From positions 1 through 64,000 of the forward strand of contig JAHIUA010000001.1 in NCBI GenBank assembly GCA_018817385.1: a stretch of DNA of 64,000 nucleotides. The letters run 5' to 3'. A program made the translations under genes and the position numbers. Shown here piece after piece: positions 14,815 to 24,085 of the stretch. The DNA is from Pseudomonadota bacterium (GTDB lineage Bacteria > Desulfobacterota > Desulfobulbia > Desulfobulbales > Desulfocapsaceae). The notes under the pieces are model-generated. The model had not been told where the DNA came from. It ran no database searches and worked only from the letters and a program-made list of their open reading frames with translations. The stretch's first letter is position 1, and every line of letters starts with the position of its first letter.

Positions 14815-15915
14815 TCACTTTTGCTGCCAATCTTCCTCTTCCTGCTCATCTATCCATTGTACCCCCTCCATTATCAAGCCCATGAAACCACCCAACGGCG
14901 GCTGATCATTCATTTTCGTAGGAATTCCTTTGGTGTAGGTAAAATGTCCGCTCTTCTGTGCCAGCAAAGCAAAGAGGGCATCTTTGCCGACAAGGTTTCT
15001 GTACTTCACCTGTATCAGTTCCCCATCGCGAAAGAGGACCGTGGCCTTGGCATCATCCAGGATCAACTCAATGATGCCTGTTTTCTGACTGGAATTGATA
15101 AGTTGCAAGAGCTCCACCATATTGATCTCGTCAAGCTCACCGGACATGCCAGAGGTGATATTACCAGATCGCAGGGCCATGGCCTGGGCCCGATCCACCA
15201 GCATCTTTAACAGGAAAAGCTGCAAGACAGGGTATTTTTTCAGTACATATTTAAAATTCTTGATACTCAGGGTTGCGACTTCTGTTTCCTGGAGCGAATA
15301 AATGGAACAGGAAACAGGTTCGCCAGAAAGGAGGCTCATCTCGCCAAAGATCTCCCCCTTGCTCATCTCGGCAAGCCTGTGGCCATCATCAGCAATAACT
15401 CCCACCTGCCCCTGAAGAAGAATAAAAAGATGGGTACCGGGGTCTCCTTTTTTGAGGAGGACCTTATTGGCGGGATATTTTTTCAACTCCAACAGGGCCG
15501 TGAGGTCAGCCAAGGCATCGTCGTCAAGAGATTCAAAGAGATGAAAATTGCGTAATCGACCATAAAATTTATCAAGATGCATTCTCCTCCGCCGGGCTTC
15601 AGTCTCAGACAACAGCTTCATCTGCAGGGTGGCGAAACCCTTTTCCTTCTTGTACTCAAAACGGATCATGCCCTGGCAGCCGCCGCAGTCAAAATTAGAT
15701 TTCTGAACACCAAGCTGAGAGAAACGTTCAAACGTCTGTTTTTTGGTCGTTATCGAGACCAGTTTCTCCACCAGAATCATACAGGTGGCTTTCGCCGCTG
15801 GAACGACAACACTGTGTGCCTCCACCTTCAGTTCTTCACCGACATTATAGAAAGGGCAGGATCGCTCTTCCGTAATAACAAAGATGGCATCACTGAACTT
15901 TTTTTCCTGTCGCAC
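14815..15915 (-). CDS. Cyclic-nucleotide-binding / DUF4388 (PATAN) signalling protein
   Basis: 366 residues, soluble. The N-terminal ~110 residues carry Cys positions (S-C-P-F-Y, T-C-M, D-C-G-G-C) that could bind metal. A cyclic-nucleotide-binding domain (about 125-245) shows L-L-K-K-G-D-P-G-T-H-L-F-I-L-L-Q-G and G-E-I-F-G-E-M-S-L-L-S-G-E-P. The C-terminus (about 258-350) is a DUF4388/PATAN domain: I-N-M-V-E-L-L-Q-L-I, then T-G-I-I-E-L and L-F-R-D-G-E-L-I. No DNA-binding domain is seen, so it probably relays a signal by protein contact. Start GTG at 15915 has GGGAGG upstream. It converges on the RlpA gene. Confidence 0.85.
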   Translation of the reverse strand: MRQEKKFSDAIFVITEERSCPFYNVGEELKVEAHSVVVPAAKATCMILVEKLVSITTKKQTFERFSQLGVQKSNFDCGGCQGMIRFEYKKEKGFATLQMKLLSETEARRRRMHLDKFYGRLRNFHLFESLDDDALADLTALLELKKYPANKVLLKKGDPGTHLFILLQGQVGVIADDGHRLAEMSKGEIFGEMSLLSGEPVSCSIYSLQETEVATLSIKNFKYVLKKYPVLQLFLLKMLVDRAQAMALRSGNITSGMSGELDEINMVELLQLINSSQKTGIIELILDDAKATVLFRDGELIQVKYRNLVGKDALFALLAQKSGHFTYTKGIPTKMNDQPPLGGFMGLIMEGVQWIDEQEEEDWQQK

Positions 15916-16591
15916 AGTGCCTCCCAGATAAATGAATTAAAATTGGTAACCATTCAGCAGCACTTCATCTTCGTCCATTGAGGTCTTCCCGAATAACACT
16001 CGTGTGTTTCGAAGTCCTGACTGAACAAATAGAAAGCGCTGCTAAACAGGTACAGAGCGGTTGTTTGCCAATCATTGGCTATTACCTGAATAATTAAATA
16101 GTTACTACCACAGGTGGTGAACGGTAAGCCGGCACTCAGTACAGCCCCCCCCTTAAGGGGTGAAAGTACCTTCACGAATTTCTCCTCAAAAAAGCACGAA
16201 AAGAATTTCTAAGGCAATAACATTGTAGTTTTTGCTTGAACGATCGCTGGAAGTCAACACTTCCTCCTAACCAAGAAACAGATAATACACTGAATTATCT
16301 GTTTCATATTCACACTATATCGCAGATAAGAAAGAGAAACAAAAAAAAGAAGAGCCAAGGTCTCAAAAAGAAGGATAAAAGATTCCTGCCTCCCAACCCC
16401 TGACACGCCAGTCCTGCACCAGCAAGGGACACAATAGCCTCAGACATCAAAACTGACAAAACAAACAAGCCTTAATCTCCTGTTATTTTTTCTTAAAAAA
16501 ACATACAATTCACAATATATCTCGCTGATATCTCAAATCCGAACGTGGAAAATTCGACTCCTTTTTTTGAGGAATCTTGACATTTCCCTTA
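15916..16591. other. Divergent intergenic region with a long inverted repeat
   Basis: About 675 bases between divergent genes, strongly A/T-rich in its right half. It holds the inverted repeat listed at 16275-16305. No protein-coding frame is convincing here. Confidence 0.5.
16275..16305. promoter_or_regulatory. 12-base perfect inverted repeat upstream of PP2C gene
   Basis: GAAACAGATAAT and ATTATCTGTTTC are separated by 7 bases. The arms are perfect and no T-run follows, so an operator for a dimeric repressor or activator is more likely than a terminator. It lies about 290 bases before the phosphatase start. Confidence 0.5.
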
Positions 16592-18442
16592 ATGAAAACA
16601 GCTCAGTGGAAGATTGCTATGTTTTACCCTAAGAGTCTGCAGCAACGAACCATTCTCTTTATTCTCCTGCCAATCTTTCTCTTTCTCAGCGGTGCCGGCC
16701 TCGTTGGCTATCGTGCTGTGAGAAAAGTTCTGCTTGATCAATGGGGAGAGACAGCCTTAGCGAATCTGGAAAGGGCAGCCCACCATATAGACATGCAGCT
16801 CAATAGCCCCAAGCAGATAATCTCATTACTGGAAGGGCTCTCTGAACAAGATTCAACTTCCAATCTTCATGAATTTATCATCGATCGCCTGAACAGGATC
16901 GATGGTGTAGTCAGCGTAACAGTGGACTGGCCGGAGCATGGGGTGAAACGCGGAATAGAGCAGCCAACGCCACACATGAATGCAAGCGCTCACAGGCATG
17001 AAAAAAGCCGCAAAGGAGCGCTTGAGATAACGACACCGGTCTATAATGTCGCCCACAACAGCAAAACAGTCTCTATGCTTACCGATCTAGTCGACAATGA
17101 TGGCTACAAGATTGGCCAAATAGAAGTAACCCTTGATTTCGAATTCCTTATCTCCCAAACCGTTCAAGCTCCGTGGTGGAATGTAGACAAGGCCTATATC
17201 GTTGATTTAAATGGCAACATCCTTGTCGGAACCATCACTGCGGGAAATACTCTTCCCGGCCAAAACAGGGAATCATTTACCACCCCAGGAACCCTTGAAC
17301 AAAAAACCCTGAATGCCATGCGGGATAAGGAATTCGGAACTGTCTTCGGCCCCGGCACGCCAGCCCACGAAATCAGTGGCTTCTACCGCCTTAAAGAAGC
17401 CCCCTGGACCATGATTGTCATCACTCCAGGAAAAAAAGTCCTGCAACCGATTATTCACTTTCGCTCTGTGTATTTTTTGGCAGCCATTGCCTGCATTGGC
17501 GTCATTCTCCTGTTTATTCGCGTAATGCTCAGCCATACCACCGAGGCCATCAGAAAGGTATCGCAAACTGCAACGAATCTTGCTCGAGGGGTATTCAGCG
17601 CCCCCCTTGAAGTAACCACAACCGATGAAGTCGGAGATCTCACCAGAAACTTTAATACCATGACCAGCCAGCTACAAAAGGGCGTTCAATTACAAAAGGC
17701 GATGAACATAGCGCGAGAAGTCCAACTAACCCTCTTGCCGCAAAACGACTACTCGGAAGAGGGGCTGCTAGCCAGTGGCTTGAGCGTCTACTGCGACGAA
17801 ACCGGTGGAGATTATTTTGATTTTATTCAATCAGATCTTCATCCCGGAAAGCTCCATGTTGTTGTCGGGGATGTAGTAGGTCACGGAATTGGGGCAGCAC
17901 TGCTCATGGCAACCCTTCGGGCATTGGTCCGGGCCAAAGTTGACCAGCCGGGAATCCCGGAGGAAATGATTTCCGGCGTCAATCAACAATTGTACCGGGA
18001 TACTGCTCAGTTTGGGAATTTTGCCTCGTTATTTTATCTTTGTATTGATAGAGCAGGACAAGAGTTGCAATGGGTTCGGGCCGGCCACGATCCTGCTATT
18101 CTTTATTTTCCGGAATCTGGCGAGTTTATTGAAATAAAAGGAAAGGGCCTGGTCCTTGGTCTTGACGCCAGCTATCAGTATCAAACCAACACCCGTGCCC
18201 TGGCAAAGGAACCTGTTGTTCTCCTTATTGGGAGTGATGGGGTATGGGAGACAGAGAATGAAAAGAGGGAACAGTTCGGCAAGCAGCGGGTAAGAGATAT
18301 CATGGCAGCAAATTATCATCTGCCACCAAAGGCTCTCCTCCGTTGCATAATCGAATCCATTGAACAATTCAGGGGCAGCACTCCCCTGCAGGATGATATC
18401 ACGTTGGTTGGGATCGCTCTTAACAGCGGCATTTCCACTTGA
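16592..18442 (+). CDS. Membrane HAMP-PP2C (SpoIIE/RsbU-like) serine phosphatase
   Basis: About 616 residues. The first membrane helix is at about residues 22-44. An extracytoplasmic sensor region (about 45-285, cache-like) follows, then a second helix (about 290-310), a HAMP domain with L-E-V-T-T-T-D-E-V-G-D-L, and a C-terminal PP2C-type phosphatase (about 390-610). The phosphatase keeps its metal-ligand motifs: D-E-T-G-G-D-Y-F-D, V-G-D-V-V-G-H-G-I-G-A-A, S-D-G-V-W-E and D-D-I-T-L-V. It should dephosphorylate a STAS-domain antagonist, most plausibly the one at 21552. Starts at 16577 (TTG), 16592 (ATG) and 16619 (ATG) are all possible. Confidence 0.9.
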   Translation: MKTAQWKIAMFYPKSLQQRTILFILLPIFLFLSGAGLVGYRAVRKVLLDQWGETALANLERAAHHIDMQLNSPKQIISLLEGLSEQDSTSNLHEFIIDRLNRIDGVVSVTVDWPEHGVKRGIEQPTPHMNASAHRHEKSRKGALEITTPVYNVAHNSKTVSMLTDLVDNDGYKIGQIEVTLDFEFLISQTVQAPWWNVDKAYIVDLNGNILVGTITAGNTLPGQNRESFTTPGTLEQKTLNAMRDKEFGTVFGPGTPAHEISGFYRLKEAPWTMIVITPGKKVLQPIIHFRSVYFLAAIACIGVILLFIRVMLSHTTEAIRKVSQTATNLARGVFSAPLEVTTTDEVGDLTRNFNTMTSQLQKGVQLQKAMNIAREVQLTLLPQNDYSEEGLLASGLSVYCDETGGDYFDFIQSDLHPGKLHVVVGDVVGHGIGAALLMATLRALVRAKVDQPGIPEEMISGVNQQLYRDTAQFGNFASLFYLCIDRAGQELQWVRAGHDPAILYFPESGEFIEIKGKGLVLGLDASYQYQTNTRALAKEPVVLLIGSDGVWETENEKREQFGKQRVRDIMAANYHLPPKALLRCIIESIEQFRGSTPLQDDITLVGIALNSGIST

Positions 18443-18517
18443 ACAAAAAAAAGAATGTGTTGAGTAATATCCACGATCGTTACTCTGCCAACAGAGAATA
18501 GTTACCTGATAAAATGA

Positions 18518-21049
18518 ATGCGCAATCTATCTTCTCATAGCCGCATCACCCAGAAATCGTTGTTCTTCTGGGCAATGAAGGGCAACTTGGGCATGCAGTT
18601 ACTGCTCTTGTTACTGATAGTGACAATGGTCTTTTCCAGAGTTATTCCTCTGGAAATGCAGAAGAGAATTGTCAATGAATCCATAGCGCTGGGCAAGCTT
18701 GACAGTTTACTCATATATTGTGCCATTTACCTCCTGGCAGTCACAACCACTGCTGGCATAAAACTGGCTATTAACTATCTCCAGGTTCTCATTGGTGAGC
18801 GGGCAATGCTTGCCATGAGAAGAGAATTATACGCTCACATCATTAGCCTGCCGCTCCAGTTTTTTCGTAGCACCCAGCCAGGAATGGTCGTCAGCTCCCT
18901 GATGACGGAGTTAAGCACTGCCGGGTCCTTTGCCGGAATGGCATTAGCGGTTCCAATATCGAACATTCTCACCTTGCTGGCCTTTGCCGCTTACCTGCTC
19001 TGGTTGAATCCGAAATTAGCCATGGCAACCCTCGGCATCTATCCGATTGTTGCCTTTCTCATCCCCTACCTACAGAAAAAAGTTAACCGTTTAAACAAGC
19101 AAAGGGTAGATCAATCACGACTGGTATCGAGTCAGATTGCCGAGTCCATCACCGGGGTAACGGAAATCAGTGTCCATGGTGCCTATGCCCAGGAAAAAAG
19201 CAAATTTAATTCTCTGGTGGAAGGGTTACGGAACATCAGAACGACATGGTCCCTGTTACGTTTCAGCATCAAAACCATCAATAACTATTTTTCGAGCATC
19301 GGCCCCTTTGTGGTATTCCTTTTTGGAGGCTACCTGGTAATGCAGGGTCAACTTGAGCTTGGTTCTCTTGTAGCATTCCTCTCTGCACAAGAGAAATTAT
19401 ATGACCCCTGGAAAGAGCTTATTGAATACTATCAAGTTTATGAGGATGCTTCAGTTCGATATTACCGAACCATGCACTCTTTTGATATAGCTGCTGAGCA
19501 TCGGCCGGAAATCGCTCTCGACTCGATACCCGAATTAAAAGGCAACCTGAAAGTGACAAACCTGGGGTATACAACCAGAAATGGAACTGTTCTCCTCAAG
19601 GGGGTCACATTTTCCTTGGCAGCTGGGGAGAATCTGGCCCTGGTCGGTTTTTCCGGGAGCGGCAAGAGCACACTGCTTAACTGCATTGCCAAGATGTTTG
19701 ATTATAACAGCGGTTCGATTTTGCTGGATGATCGCGAAGTAAAAGAGATCCGCAAAAACGAAATCATTCAACACATCGGTTATATCTCCCAACATCCCTT
19801 CATCTTTTCCGGTACGATGCGTGAAAATTTACTCTACACCCATCGTGCTGCCAACACGAACGGGCCCGCCTCCAAGGAAGAGTATCATCCTCCTGAACTT
19901 GACCAACTCATTCTTGCTTTGCAACAGGCTGGGATCTTTGTCGATGTTATACGATTTGGCCTCAACAGTTTCCTTACAACAAAGGAAACGGAAATGATTG
20001 CCAAGATCATTCGCATCCGGAAACAATTCAGAAAGGACTACAGTCAATCTCTGGAAAAATACATTGAGTTTTACCGGGAAGACCGATACATGTACCACTC
20101 TGATATTGCAGAAAATATAGTTTTTGGTACTCCACTTGATAGCTTACTTCCACTTTCTTCTCTGGCCACATCCCTCCTCTTCAGGACCTTTCTGGATAGA
20201 ACGGATCTAACTGAGCCCTTGCTGTCTCTTGGTGTGGATCTGACAAAACAATACGTGGATAACCTATCCGGATTGGGCGATCTTGATCCTTTTTTGCCCA
20301 CCATCCCGATTACCGGTGAAAAGGGGAATACATATCGAATACTCTTAGAACGTCTTGGAGAAAGCAGCCCGAACCACCTTCCACCTGCAGACCAAGCCTC
20401 TCTCTTAACCCTTGCCCTGCTATTCACCCCCGGTAGCCGGCGGCCCTATAGTATTCAGCCAACACTTGAAAAAAATATCCTCCAGGGCAGAAAGTCCTGG
20501 AAAGAATGGCGCGAAAAAGTATTCCCAGGCAAATTCAACTCGTTTCAGGAAACTGCGTACATCCATGGCCAATCAATCCTCAACAACATCCTTTTTGGAA
20601 GGATAAAAACGGAACAGATCTCTGCTCAAGAAGAAATAAGTCAGAACATCATCCGCTTGTTGATCGAAGAAGACTGCCTCGAATCTATCGCCGAGGCAGG
20701 GATGGACTATCATATAGGAAGCATGGGCAACAGGCTTTCCGGGGGCCAAAAACAAAAACTGGCCATTGCCAGGGTCTTGTTGAAAGACGCCAAAATCATT
20801 CTCATGGATGAATCAACGTCAGCGCTCGACAATCAATCACAGTCTCGAATCCAACGACTCATTGAACATCGGTGGCAAGGCGAGCGAACGGTTATCGCCG
20901 TTGTTCATCGGTTAGACAGTATTGAAGGGTTTAATAAGATAGGTGTTATGAAAGATGGACAACTTATGGAATACGGGGAGTACCCTCAGCTGATCTCCCA
21001 AAAAGGGTTACTCTATGAACTCGTCTTCGGAAAAAAGGAGTGGAGATGA
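18518..21049 (+). CDS. ABC exporter half-transporter with large insertion in its ATPase domain
   Basis: 843 residues. About 5-6 membrane helices lie in residues 22-290 (exporter-type fold). The ATPase domain starts near 345 with Walker A GFSGSGKST (about 377-385) and Q-loop G-Y-I-S-Q-H-P-F-I-F-S-G-T. Normal exporters reach the signature about 100 residues later. Here RLSGGQKQK comes only at about 739, followed by Walker B I-I-L-M-D-E-S-T-S-A-L-D and switch H in V-V-H-R-L-D. About 275 extra residues contain three echoes of the post-Q-loop strand (ENLLYT, ENIVFG, NNILFG). All catalytic motifs are kept, so ATP-driven export is likely; the substrate is unknown. The ribosome binding site is poor. 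It is downstream of the phosphatase and upstream of the kinase. Confidence 0.9.
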   Translation: MRNLSSHSRITQKSLFFWAMKGNLGMQLLLLLLIVTMVFSRVIPLEMQKRIVNESIALGKLDSLLIYCAIYLLAVTTTAGIKLAINYLQVLIGERAMLAMRRELYAHIISLPLQFFRSTQPGMVVSSLMTELSTAGSFAGMALAVPISNILTLLAFAAYLLWLNPKLAMATLGIYPIVAFLIPYLQKKVNRLNKQRVDQSRLVSSQIAESITGVTEISVHGAYAQEKSKFNSLVEGLRNIRTTWSLLRFSIKTINNYFSSIGPFVVFLFGGYLVMQGQLELGSLVAFLSAQEKLYDPWKELIEYYQVYEDASVRYYRTMHSFDIAAEHRPEIALDSIPELKGNLKVTNLGYTTRNGTVLLKGVTFSLAAGENLALVGFSGSGKSTLLNCIAKMFDYNSGSILLDDREVKEIRKNEIIQHIGYISQHPFIFSGTMRENLLYTHRAANTNGPASKEEYHPPELDQLILALQQAGIFVDVIRFGLNSFLTTKETEMIAKIIRIRKQFRKDYSQSLEKYIEFYREDRYMYHSDIAENIVFGTPLDSLLPLSSLATSLLFRTFLDRTDLTEPLLSLGVDLTKQYVDNLSGLGDLDPFLPTIPITGEKGNTYRILLERLGESSPNHLPPADQASLLTLALLFTPGSRRPYSIQPTLEKNILQGRKSWKEWREKVFPGKFNSFQETAYIHGQSILNNILFGRIKTEQISAQEEISQNIIRLLIEEDCLESIAEAGMDYHIGSMGNRLSGGQKQKLAIARVLLKDAKIILMDESTSALDNQSQSRIQRLIEHRWQGERTVIAVVHRLDSIEGFNKIGVMKDGQLMEYGEYPQLISQKGLLYELVFGKKEWR

Positions 21050-21132
21050 AGCATCCAAGAACCCTATCTGGCAGCAAGGTCCGAATGAACGTACCAGAAA
21101 CAATTCCTCGAACTTTTTTGGCAAAAAAATGA
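21046..21132 (+). CDS. 28-codon mini-ORF linking the ABC and kinase genes
   Basis: Its ATG (21046) overlaps the ABC stop as ATGA and is preceded by AAGGAGTGGAG. Its TGA (21130-21132) overlaps the kinase ATG at 21129, again as ATGA. It encodes MKHPRTLSGSKV... and ends ...FLAKK; basic, with no hydrophobic segment. It fills exactly the gap between the two genes, so its translation could deliver ribosomes to the kinase start, which lacks its own ribosome binding site. It may be a coupling device instead of a functional peptide. Inference from overlaps only. Confidence 0.45.
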   Translation: MKHPRTLSGSKVRMNVPETIPRTFLAKK

Positions 21133-21536
21133 CGAAAGAGTTTCAAATAATAGGCTCTCTAAAAGGCTTAGACGATCTAAGGGTACACCTGGAGAAAACA
21201 GCCTTGGCCTGGAGTCTCTCCCAAAATCAACTAGTTGAAATAAATTTAATCCTGGAAGAGATTTGTTCGAATTACATTGAACATGGAGAAAGTAATGCCC
21301 TCAATTCTATTAAAATACAACTGATTCTGGAAAATTCTCTCCTCTCGATACGTATCACAGACGAAGGGCCGGAATTTGATCCAACAACAGTATCAGACCC
21401 TGATGTGCATCTGCCAATTGACAAAAGAAAGGCAGGTGGCCTTGGCTTATATTTTGTAAAACACTACACAGACAGTATCTCCTATAGAAGGATAAATAAT
21501 ACTAACAATCTCTTTATTGAAAAAAAGATAAAATAA
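21129..21536 (+). CDS. RsbW/SpoIIAB-like serine kinase (anti-sigma-factor type ATPase)
   Basis: About 135 residues, a minimal HATPase_c domain. The N-box is N-L-I-L-E-E-I-C-S-N-Y-I-E-H-G, the G1 box is T-D-E-G-P-E-F-D-P, and the G2 box is G-G-L-G-L-Y-F-V-K-H. Such proteins phosphorylate a Ser of a STAS antagonist and, when free, bind a target, often a sigma factor. No sigma factor is nearby; the phosphatase and the STAS protein are. The in-frame start at 21015 would overlap the ABC gene by 35 bases, so I prefer the ATG at 21129. The gene is clearly A/T-rich. Confidence 0.85.
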   Translation: MTKEFQIIGSLKGLDDLRVHLEKTALAWSLSQNQLVEINLILEEICSNYIEHGESNALNSIKIQLILENSLLSIRITDEGPEFDPTTVSDPDVHLPIDKRKAGGLGLYFVKHYTDSISYRRINNTNNLFIEKKIK

Positions 21537-21551
21537 CTGAGCGGAGAAAAT

Positions 21552-21878
21552 ATGTACATCACTGTTGAAAATAAAGATGGGTCAATGATTGTTTCTATTG
21601 AAGGCAGGCTTGATTCTATAACTTCAAGTAAATTAGAGAAATGGGCGGATGAAGCTATTACTCCGCCTAAACACAATGTTGTAATGGACTTTTCTCAGTT
21701 GGAGTATATTTCGAGTGCAGGAATGAGGGCAATATTGAATATCTCAAAACTCATAAATAAACATTCCTATACATTTTCAATTTGTAGTGCCCATGACCAC
21801 ATAAGAGAGATATTTGAAATTTCAGGTTTTGATTCGTTTATCCCCATCTACAGGTCAGTAGAGGACTCTTTACCATAA
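21552..21878 (+). CDS. STAS-domain anti-anti-sigma factor-like antagonist
   Basis: 108 residues, the size of RsbV/SpoIIAA. The core strand and phosphorylation site read D-F-S-Q-L-E-Y-I-S-S-A-G-M-R-A; the Ser just before A-G-M is the expected target of the upstream kinase and of the PP2C phosphatase at 16592. CGGAG lies 5 bases before the ATG, and the gene starts 15 bases after the kinase stop. With its neighbours it completes a partner-switching module. A/T-rich like the kinase gene. Confidence 0.9.
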   Translation: MYITVENKDGSMIVSIEGRLDSITSSKLEKWADEAITPPKHNVVMDFSQLEYISSAGMRAILNISKLINKHSYTFSICSAHDHIREIFEISGFDSFIPIYRSVEDSLP

Positions 21879-22279: not shown

Positions 22280-24085
22280 TCATTCAGAGAGTGCTCTCTC
22301 CCCCTTCTCCATCCGGGAACAGATTGTTTCCTTACTGAAATCCTTCCACATGGGATCGGTGTACTGACTGTGGCAACCAACGCAAAGGCCAACACGAAGG
22401 ATACGCTGCAGCTCGTCTTTATTAAAAGGACGGAGGTCAGGACGGGAACCATGCTGCAGGGCTTCACCCTCGATATTGACAAAGGCATCAAAGGGGACAG
22501 TCTGACCCACCAGGGTATCCACGCCCTGATCCAGGGAAGCGAACGACCAGTTGCCATCCTTGTCCACAGCCACGGTTCCCTCGCCCAGACCAACGGTCTT
22601 GGTGGACTGGTGACAGTCAGCACAGTCTCTGCCCCTGGCCTGGGTGGTATGGGGATTGATGGCGGCCATGGTAAAGCGATTAAAGCCGCCTTCGACCTTT
22701 CCGTCTTCATCAAGCATGGTCACAATGTCCTGGCAACCGGGAGTAACGATCACCACCTCGTCCTTCCACAGGGCTAGCATGGGTCTCTCATAGCGGATAT
22801 AGGACCTGCCTTCTTCCCACATACCCGGGGTCTCTTTCAGAGTCAACTTATCCAGATGTTTTTCTGCAGCGTCGCGTTTGGCATGACAGCCATAGCACTG
22901 GGGTACCCAGGTGGAGTGACAGGCCTCACAGGTCATCCGTTTGTGACCACTGAAGTCGCAGACTCCTTTTTTAGGGACAGCCAGAGGATACACCTTGCCA
23001 TTGACCTTCCCTGTCAGCTCAAATTTCTCTGCATTCTTGCTGATATTGATAACCTGATCCCCCTTGCGGGTTATTCCGGGGTTTTCCGAATGACACATCT
23101 CGCAGGAGATCTCCAGCTGATCCTCATAGTGGGCATAACTGGTGCCGTCACCCATGATCTCATTACGGGTATGACAGTCAATGCAGGCCATCTCCTTCTT
23201 GTGGTGAATATCCTCGGCAATCTCCAGATAGAAACGCTGCCCCGGCAACTGCTTTGAGGTCATCCCCCCCTTTTCATAGGGAGTGCCATAGCCTTCAGAC
23301 TCGAAGATACCGGTATAGGAGATGCCGATCCTGCCGGAACGATTATGACAGCGGATACAGTTATCCTCTCCCACTTTTTTAAGGATCAGGGGATGGACCT
23401 TTTTCTTTTCACTCTTGGTCCTATCATCAAAACCGGCAACCCCTTGGCGATCTTCTCCTTCGGGAAGAAGATAATGACAGGCAGAACAGCCACCGCCCTT
23501 TTCATTGAAAAAATCCGGGGCCCCGGGGAGATCGTTTTTCTGTTTCCACAGATGGCAGGTCGCACAGAGTTTACGAAAATAATCGAGGGCCAGTGAGGTC
23601 TCACCACTGTCCATGAGATCTTTGACAGTGAGTTCCGTATCCTGGGAGTCCGTTTCTCCCCAGTAATAGAGGAGGGTGCCGAGGATCCCGCGGTTGGTGG
23701 CCATGAGGGAGTTCATCACCTTTTTCACGTCCGTTGGATGGCAGCCTTCGATGCCACAGGTTTTTTCCACCACCCGCAGGTCGCCCGGATTGATCACCAT
23801 CCCCTTATGCGCCTGATCCTTCTCAAGGGCAAGCCCGTCACCGAGATGGCAGGAAGCACAGCCAATCACTCTGGGATCATGGGCAGGGTCAAGTTTTTCA
23901 TCCTGGTGGCACGAAAGACACATATCGATACGACCACTGGTGGTCATATAAACCTGATCCGGGCGTTTAATAAGCATTTCCCGAGTGATGAGCAGGGCGA
24001 CAACTATCAGGAGAAACAGGAGGAGCAGTTGTTTTTTGACTGCTCTGCCCTCACCAGTCCTGGCTGTTTGCGATTGCTTGGCCAT
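22280..24085 (-). CDS. Membrane-anchored multihaem cytochrome c (11-12 haems)
   Basis: 601 residues. One N-terminal membrane helix (about residues 18-38) anchors the protein facing the periplasm. I count eleven CxxCH motifs: CLSCH, CASCH, CATCH, CSACH, CIRCH, CIDCH, CEMCH, CEACH, CYGCH, CADCH and CVGCH. There is also one CX4CH-type site (C-G-I-E-G-C-H) that may bind a twelfth haem. It should carry electrons across the periplasm; whether it reduces a substrate itself cannot be told. Start ATG is 3 bases after the NAD synthetase stop, so it is the third gene of an operon. No porin partner or NrfD-like subunit is adjacent. Confidence 0.92.
   Translation of the reverse strand: MAKQSQTARTGEGRAVKKQLLLLFLLIVVALLITREMLIKRPDQVYMTTSGRIDMCLSCHQDEKLDPAHDPRVIGCASCHLGDGLALEKDQAHKGMVINPGDLRVVEKTCGIEGCHPTDVKKVMNSLMATNRGILGTLLYYWGETDSQDTELTVKDLMDSGETSLALDYFRKLCATCHLWKQKNDLPGAPDFFNEKGGGCSACHYLLPEGEDRQGVAGFDDRTKSEKKKVHPLILKKVGEDNCIRCHNRSGRIGISYTGIFESEGYGTPYEKGGMTSKQLPGQRFYLEIAEDIHHKKEMACIDCHTRNEIMGDGTSYAHYEDQLEISCEMCHSENPGITRKGDQVINISKNAEKFELTGKVNGKVYPLAVPKKGVCDFSGHKRMTCEACHSTWVPQCYGCHAKRDAAEKHLDKLTLKETPGMWEEGRSYIRYERPMLALWKDEVVIVTPGCQDIVTMLDEDGKVEGGFNRFTMAAINPHTTQARGRDCADCHQSTKTVGLGEGTVAVDKDGNWSFASLDQGVDTLVGQTVPFDAFVNIEGEALQHGSRPDLRPFNKDELQRILRVGLCVGCHSQYTDPMWKDFSKETICSRMEKGERALSE

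Follow-up and report, generated by a model that had tools for sequence, protein, structure and literature searches.

A partner-switching gene set linked to an ABC exporter, with a proposed STAS contact on the helical subdomain

The locus described here is probably a partner-switching module with an ABC exporter as its output, in which a STAS protein would dock on the helical subdomain of the exporter's ATPase while its Ser55 cycles between phosphorylated and dephosphorylated states. Most partner switches described so far act on sigma factors; a few have an enzyme such as SiaD as their output. The exporter is the best candidate target because its linkage to the switch appears to have a single origin; no sigma factor was found in the module. 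Partner switches with an enzyme output (SiaABCD; available text of PMC7647112) and a contact between a STAS protein and an ABC ATPase (MlaFB) are already known; new here is a partner switch with an ABC exporter as the proposed output. The module corresponds to a widespread STAS-ABC pair encoded together with its own kinase and often a phosphatase, and post-translational switching of an ABC exporter would be directly testable with the four proteins.

Organization of the locus

In the window, the 64,000-nucleotide stretch of DNA that was analysed, an ORF check places the genes for a PP2C phosphatase, an ABC exporter, an RsbW-like kinase and a STAS protein in one direction. The first of them (16592..18442, plus strand; alternative start TTG at 16577) encodes a membrane PP2C phosphatase of the SpoIIE type with a HAMP domain (HAMP 1.3e-10, SpoIIE PF07228 1.3e-42), presumed to be the sensor and the phosphatase of the STAS protein. 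It bears a weak resemblance to the NCBIfam model of SiaA (53.9 bits; cut-off 700). The second gene (18518..21049, plus strand) encodes an MsbA-like type IV ABC exporter of 843 aa (ABC_membrane 9e-30; ABC_tran 3e-29 in two stretches with an insertion between them), the presumed target of the switch. It is followed by a mini-ORF of 28 codons (21046..21132, plus strand), which shares ATGA overlaps with the ABC gene (21046-21049) and with the kinase gene (21129-21132). As none of the four relatives inspected (L075, L076, L088, L151) has a counterpart, the mini-ORF was rejected as a fifth protein and is treated as a coupled spacer that probably serves translational coupling.

The kinase (21129..21536, plus strand; HATPase_c_2 PF13581 8.9e-20) is RsbW/SpoIIAB-like, and its closest solved sequences are those of RsbW and SpoIIAB (RsbW match in the PDB, 7e-15). 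Its N-box residues E44 and N48 are kept in all 78 aligned sequences. The STAS protein (21552..21878, plus strand; PF01740 5e-21) belongs with RsbV and SpoIIAA, and SpoIIAA-like STAS proteins are its closest solved sequences. Ser55, which is kept in 79 of 79 aligned sequences and, in the alignment with SpoIIAA, coincides with the first serine of 'DSSG', is the predicted phosphoacceptor. The ORFs and Pfam domains bear out the initial annotation, which had described four genes in one direction, the two ATGA junctions and a complete set of RsbU, RsbW and RsbV parts. Fusions of the kinase or the STAS protein with other domains were considered and rejected: the long STAS ORFs appear merely to have been extended upstream, and a kinase ORF of 372 aa in L080 crosses a masked stretch.

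A domain scan of the flanking genes returned cNMP-binding/DUF4388, LysM/lytic-transglycosylase-like, multihaem cytochrome, NAD synthase and GAF/PAS histidine kinase proteins. The cNMP-binding and DUF4388 protein (14815-15915, minus strand), encoded divergently from the PP2C gene, has an architecture unlike that of the cNMP gene found at other loci. Downstream of the STAS gene and on the opposite strand lies the gene of the multihaem cytochrome (22280-24085, minus strand; 601 aa; PF14537 and related).

The three signalling proteins belong to the same families as RsbU-RsbW-RsbV and SpoIIE-SpoIIAB-SpoIIAA (available text of PMC8256260), comprising a PP2C phosphatase, a kinase with an intact N-box and a STAS protein with a conserved phosphoacceptor position, but the locus has a transporter in the place of the sigma factor, and no linked sigma factor was found. 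SiaABCD of Pseudomonas aeruginosa is similar in that the HAMP-PP2C protein SiaA, the kinase SiaB and the phosphoprotein SiaC act on an enzyme and not on a sigma factor (PMC7647112 and PMC8457831, in the portions available). Its output differs, being the diguanylate cyclase SiaD, and a scan of the four genes and of six neighbouring proteins found no GGDEF domain. A search of the open-access literature by titles and abstract openings, with preprints and subscription papers outside its scope, yielded no partner switch joined to an ABC exporter; in the accessible part of PMC9237108, ABC transporters appear only as regulated iron-uptake proteins.

Conservation of the gene set

Switch and exporter are encoded together in many bacteria of a large group, most of them sulfate reducers. 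With the ABC insertion as query, matches were obtained in 56 of 93 genomes of the window's family, and the window-type ABC gene is usually accompanied by kinase and STAS genes in several gene orders. Most homologous loci have a fifth gene, for a cNMP-binding protein of ~170-195 aa, that adjoins the ABC gene, mostly after it, and that is absent from the window operon. A scan of named genomes, with search patterns drawn from the query, confirmed 119 loci, 80 of them among the matches listed; the titles of these 80 name Desulfo- taxa, Syntrophobacterales, an Olavius symbiont and unclassified Deltaproteobacteria. Of the 80, 58 are well flanked, with 2 kb or more to either side; counting genes within 5 kb, we found the kinase at 53 of these, the STAS protein at 56, both at 52, the cNMP gene at 54 and the PP2C gene at 28. 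Over all 80, kinase and STAS were each found at 70. The six well-flanked loci without the complete pair are L128, L139, L142 and L154, with STAS only, L134, with neither, and L080, which is masked after the kinase. The kinase/STAS/ABC linkage recurs in many genomes and in several gene orders and is therefore not due to chance. The gene set that the initial annotation proposed to look for in other genomes is thus conserved in its linkage, with a varying gene order.

The kinase and the STAS protein belong to families with a wider distribution than the insertion-bearing ABC. In a phylum sample of 395 genomes, the ABC was found in 28, the kinase profile in 127 (threshold 1e-15) and the STAS profile in 98 (threshold 1e-20). 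Among the best 15 STAS matches, 14 have an insertion-ABC match no more than about 3 kb away, a ranking that favours ABC-linked copies because the kinase and STAS profiles were built from ABC-linked rows. The initial annotation had named a mostly unlinked kinase/STAS pair as an outcome that would speak against it; this holds for the broad families and not for the nearest STAS subfamily. In trees that took in every second of the named loci, ABC-linked sequences account for 58 of 74 kinase rows, with 6 label changes where shuffling gave a mean of 14.7, and for 68 of 82 STAS rows, with 5 changes where it gave 13.2. The ABC-linked kinases and STAS proteins are clustered in these trees and do not form one clade.

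Kinase-STAS pairs without an insertion-bearing ABC occur in L158-L164, L167, L168, L170, L171, L173 and L174, most of them with a PP2C gene in the stretch. L057, L060, L062 and L063 share the order kinase-STAS-PilZ-ABC-cNMP-c8 and adjoin a gene for a protein of ~730 aa with metallo-beta-lactamase and cNMP-binding domains. At two loci (L067, 2432-4311, and L147) the ABC gene is split into at least two ORFs while kinase and STAS are kept, which may reflect a frameshift or an assembly error.

A probable single origin of the linkage

The ABC tree, built by a quick method with a midpoint root and taking in every third of the named loci, has 78 rows, with a STAS gene within 4 kb in 54, none in 19, and 5 at contig edges. 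A branch with an SH-aLRT value of 99 separates 59 rows, which include all 54 STAS-linked exporters, three at contig edges and two without an adjacent STAS gene, from the remaining 19, of which 17 are without STAS and two are at contig edges. The two exporters without adjacent STAS (G369, G480) come from genomes that have a kinase-STAS pair elsewhere, in G369 together with the c8 gene, which accompanies the ABC gene in other genomes. Since all STAS-linked exporters fall on one side of this well-supported branch, the tree points to a single recruitment of the partner switch to the exporter. Of the 78 exporters, 68 have a cNMP gene nearby, and so do most of those without STAS. Exporter and cNMP protein thus appear to be the original pair, to which the partner switch was added later and stably; the window's lineage would then seem to have lost the cNMP gene from the operon.

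Distant relatives (23-25% identity among the 20 rows listed) are found on plasmids of Sinorhizobium, Rhizobium and Methylobacterium (L197, L198, L199), with a cNMP-binding gene after the ABC gene in L197 and L198 and not in L199. In total 244 plasmid records, nearly all from Rhizobiales, match the insertion-bearing ABC. The window genome has a second exporter of the family (L072, G000:C24:44341-44955), with cNMP and PP2C genes nearby and neither kinase nor STAS.

The exporter and its insertion

The exporter is a fused TMD-NBD protein in which the residues of Walker A, Q-loop, LSGGQ, Walker B and H-switch are conserved. Its AlphaFold model (mean pLDDT 78) has the exporter fold and matches TAP1, MsbA, ABCB1 and others in the PDB with Z about 30. 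Fold and motifs are those of MsbA-type type IV exporters, from which the protein differs by an insertion of about 200 residues in the helical subdomain of the ATPase. Membership of the NCBIfam family CphA_assoc_ABC was rejected (231 bits, cut-off 880).

The insertion is helical and spans ABC residues 485-680 (about 196 residues; 19970..20557, plus strand). An 'I-x-x-N-I-x-F-G' element stands after the Q-loop; it opens the third helical segment, and a second, extra copy lies inside the insertion. Modelled alone with AlphaFold, the insertion is again helical (pLDDT 82). Comparison of its repeats by hhalign gave a probability of 93 for R2 and R3 (22 columns), and of 32 and 25 for R1 with R2 and R3, respectively. 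Its profile matches PDB sequences weakly, the best being PglK (E 0.004), over the Q-loop/helical region of that protein. A Foldseek search of the PDB with the insertion alone returned no match at E 0.001; the VIA structural search listed CFTR NBD1 (Z 5.3), LptB and an MlaFEDB chain (both Z about 3). The weak PglK match and these weak structural matches indicate one and the same part of the ABC protein. We read the insertion as having arisen by duplication of part of the helical subdomain; it is common to exporters with and without STAS.

The initial annotation had suggested that the kinase or the STAS protein might act on the transporter through this insertion, a proposal that found no support. 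The insertion was rejected as the distinguishing part of the STAS-linked exporters because sister exporters without STAS or kinase keep it, and because almost none of the clade-specific residues fall in it (1 of 196 positions).

Clade-specific residues in the helical subdomain

Positions that are conserved in the STAS clade and specific to it were determined from 59 distinct STAS-clade exporters and 17 others, with near-duplicates removed. They are concentrated in the two parts of the helical subdomain that flank the insertion, ABC residues 431-484 (19808..19969, plus strand) and residues 681-745, up to LSGGQ (20558..20752, plus strand), which together form the proposed STAS contact. With region boundaries and thresholds chosen by the analyst, 13 of 118 positions qualify in the helical subdomain and 9 of 721 elsewhere (p 7.5e-7, a nominal value because the positions share one tree). 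Besides the one in the insertion, the latter comprise five of the 335 TMD positions and three of the 190 NBD-core positions. Across five thresholds the odds ratio ranges from 4.4 to 9.8; an earlier run with duplicates kept (66 rows against 17) had 12 of 721 positions elsewhere and odds ratios of 4.1-7.3. Neither the reverse comparison nor a split among the exporters without STAS gave an enrichment in the helical subdomain. Two control splits inside the STAS clade gave 0-2 qualifying positions, too few to be informative, with an odds ratio of 6.2 and p 0.26 at two thresholds. By analogy with MlaB, the residues specific to the STAS clade suggest a STAS contact on the helical subdomain, although a different partner or a change in the ATPase cycle could also account for them.

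Of the two possible contacts, STAS accompanies the exporter more constantly than the kinase does. In eight loci (L128, L139, L142, L154, L166, L169, L172, L204) STAS is kept, and a search of all reading frames of the stretch gave no kinase match at E 1; L215 has a kinase and was left out of this set. Those of the eight that are included in the ABC tree fall in a few related groups, which means two or three losses, not eight. Ser55 is intact in seven of the eight, namely those present in the alignment. Among the 80 named loci there is no clean case of a kinase without STAS (L080 is masked; L083, L115 and L125 end soon after the kinase).

Comparison with MlaFB and proposed mechanism

According to the available text of PMC7367683, the site to which the STAS protein MlaB binds on MlaF has the helical subdomain at its centre, and Thr52 lies close to the midpoint of the contact surface. 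There, a T52E exchange in MlaB weakens MlaF binding, while the T52A variant is non-functional though still bound, for which reason MlaFB is not a clean precedent for a phospho-switch. The same text raises phosphoregulation of Thr52 as a possibility that its authors leave open, reporting no experimental evidence of phosphorylation, and states that no second STAS-ABC pair was found among the structures solved by 2020. Ser55 of the window's STAS protein aligns with Thr52 of E. coli MlaB; the overall similarity of the two proteins is weak (hhalign probability 13.8). The two systems have in common that a STAS protein is paired with an ABC ATPase. They differ in that MlaF, as described in the accessible literature, is an ATPase subunit of its own that bears a 'handshake' extension at its C terminus, whereas the window's ABC protein is a fused exporter, and in that the window operon encodes a kinase and a PP2C phosphatase alongside the STAS/ABC pair. 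An operon of the mlaFEDCB type was not found, with no MlaC, MlaD or MlaE among the scanned window neighbours.

In the proposed mechanism, the membrane PP2C protein would sense an outside signal and dephosphorylate Ser55 of the STAS protein. Dephosphorylated STAS would then dock on the helical subdomain and set the activity of the exporter, up or down. The RsbW-like kinase, judging from its intact motifs, would rephosphorylate STAS with ATP and reset the switch, phospho-STAS being unable to dock. Against this mechanism count the presence of the PP2C gene near the ABC gene in only 28 of the 58 well-flanked loci, the wider distribution of the kinase and STAS families, the scatter of ABC-linked copies over more than one clade in the kinase and STAS trees, and the nine Sigma70_r2 proteins encoded elsewhere in the genome. 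That a complete switch gates the exporter by direct, phosphorylation-dependent docking of STAS is a reading to which we give even chances. If it is correct, the MlaB site on MlaF would be one case of a general regulatory site on ABC transporters, with the kinase and the phosphatase of such a site identified in the present module.

Alternative targets of the switch

The initial annotation had the kinase or the STAS protein control the transporter. The conserved linkage, apparently of single origin, upholds the exporter as the best candidate, and direct control is what the sequences suggest. Regulators are often encoded together with their own regulon, and the kinase might accordingly sequester an unlinked sigma factor or another transcription regulator, the ABC operon merely belonging to the regulon and being autoregulated. 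In favour of this, all three Rsb-type parts are intact and the window genome encodes nine Sigma70_r2 proteins, all off the window's contig. On the 86-kb contig itself, a Sigma70_r2 search found no sigma factor. With these nine proteins as queries (E 1e-3), none of the 8923 ORFs examined matched; these came from 116 stretches, of which 95 are distinct since 21 of the 35 stretches L035-L069 recur among L075-L154. Distant ECF factors could escape this search because, in a control, six of the nine queries retrieved one another, the two ECF-like queries retrieved nothing but each other and the remaining one retrieved none. The absence of a sigma factor noted in the initial annotation extends to these stretches, and homologous loci do not carry one in place of the ABC gene as far as the search reaches. 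STAS also stays with the exporter where the kinase, the would-be holder of the sigma factor, is not adjacent, and conservation of the helical subdomain in the STAS clade is not predicted by a sigma factor acting in trans, an explanation that we regard as unlikely.

Still less likely is that the target of the switch is the cNMP-binding protein, which has been with the exporter for longer, and that the exporter is affected only through that protein. The cNMP gene is near the ABC gene in 54 of the 58 well-flanked loci, in most rows without STAS and in two of the three Rhizobiales plasmid loci looked at (L197 and L198, not L199), but the window and L035, L036, L038, L065, L068, L069 and L151 have STAS without a nearby cNMP gene of the family. 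Supply in trans is possible in the window genome, whose second family exporter (L072) has a cNMP gene adjoining. Least probable, in our judgement, is a direct contact between kinase and exporter, as RsbW binds sigma B, with STAS as the antagonist that frees the kinase. The canonical layout does place the target on the kinase (PMC8256260, in the part available), against which stand the eight loci that keep STAS with no kinase in the stretch and the lack of a clean case of the opposite kind among the 80 named loci. STAS docking on the exporter is the preferred reading.

Genes adjoining the exporters

Some exporters of the family are adjoined by a conserved cluster of genes encoding a PqqD-like protein (PF05402), a c9 protein of ~295 aa, a c8 protein of ~200 aa and often a protein of ~652 aa without a Pfam match. 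The PqqD-like/c9/c8 cluster is present in L127, L133 and L150, which have the switch, and in L071-L074, which are without it, and it may hint at a peptide-related substrate of the exporter.
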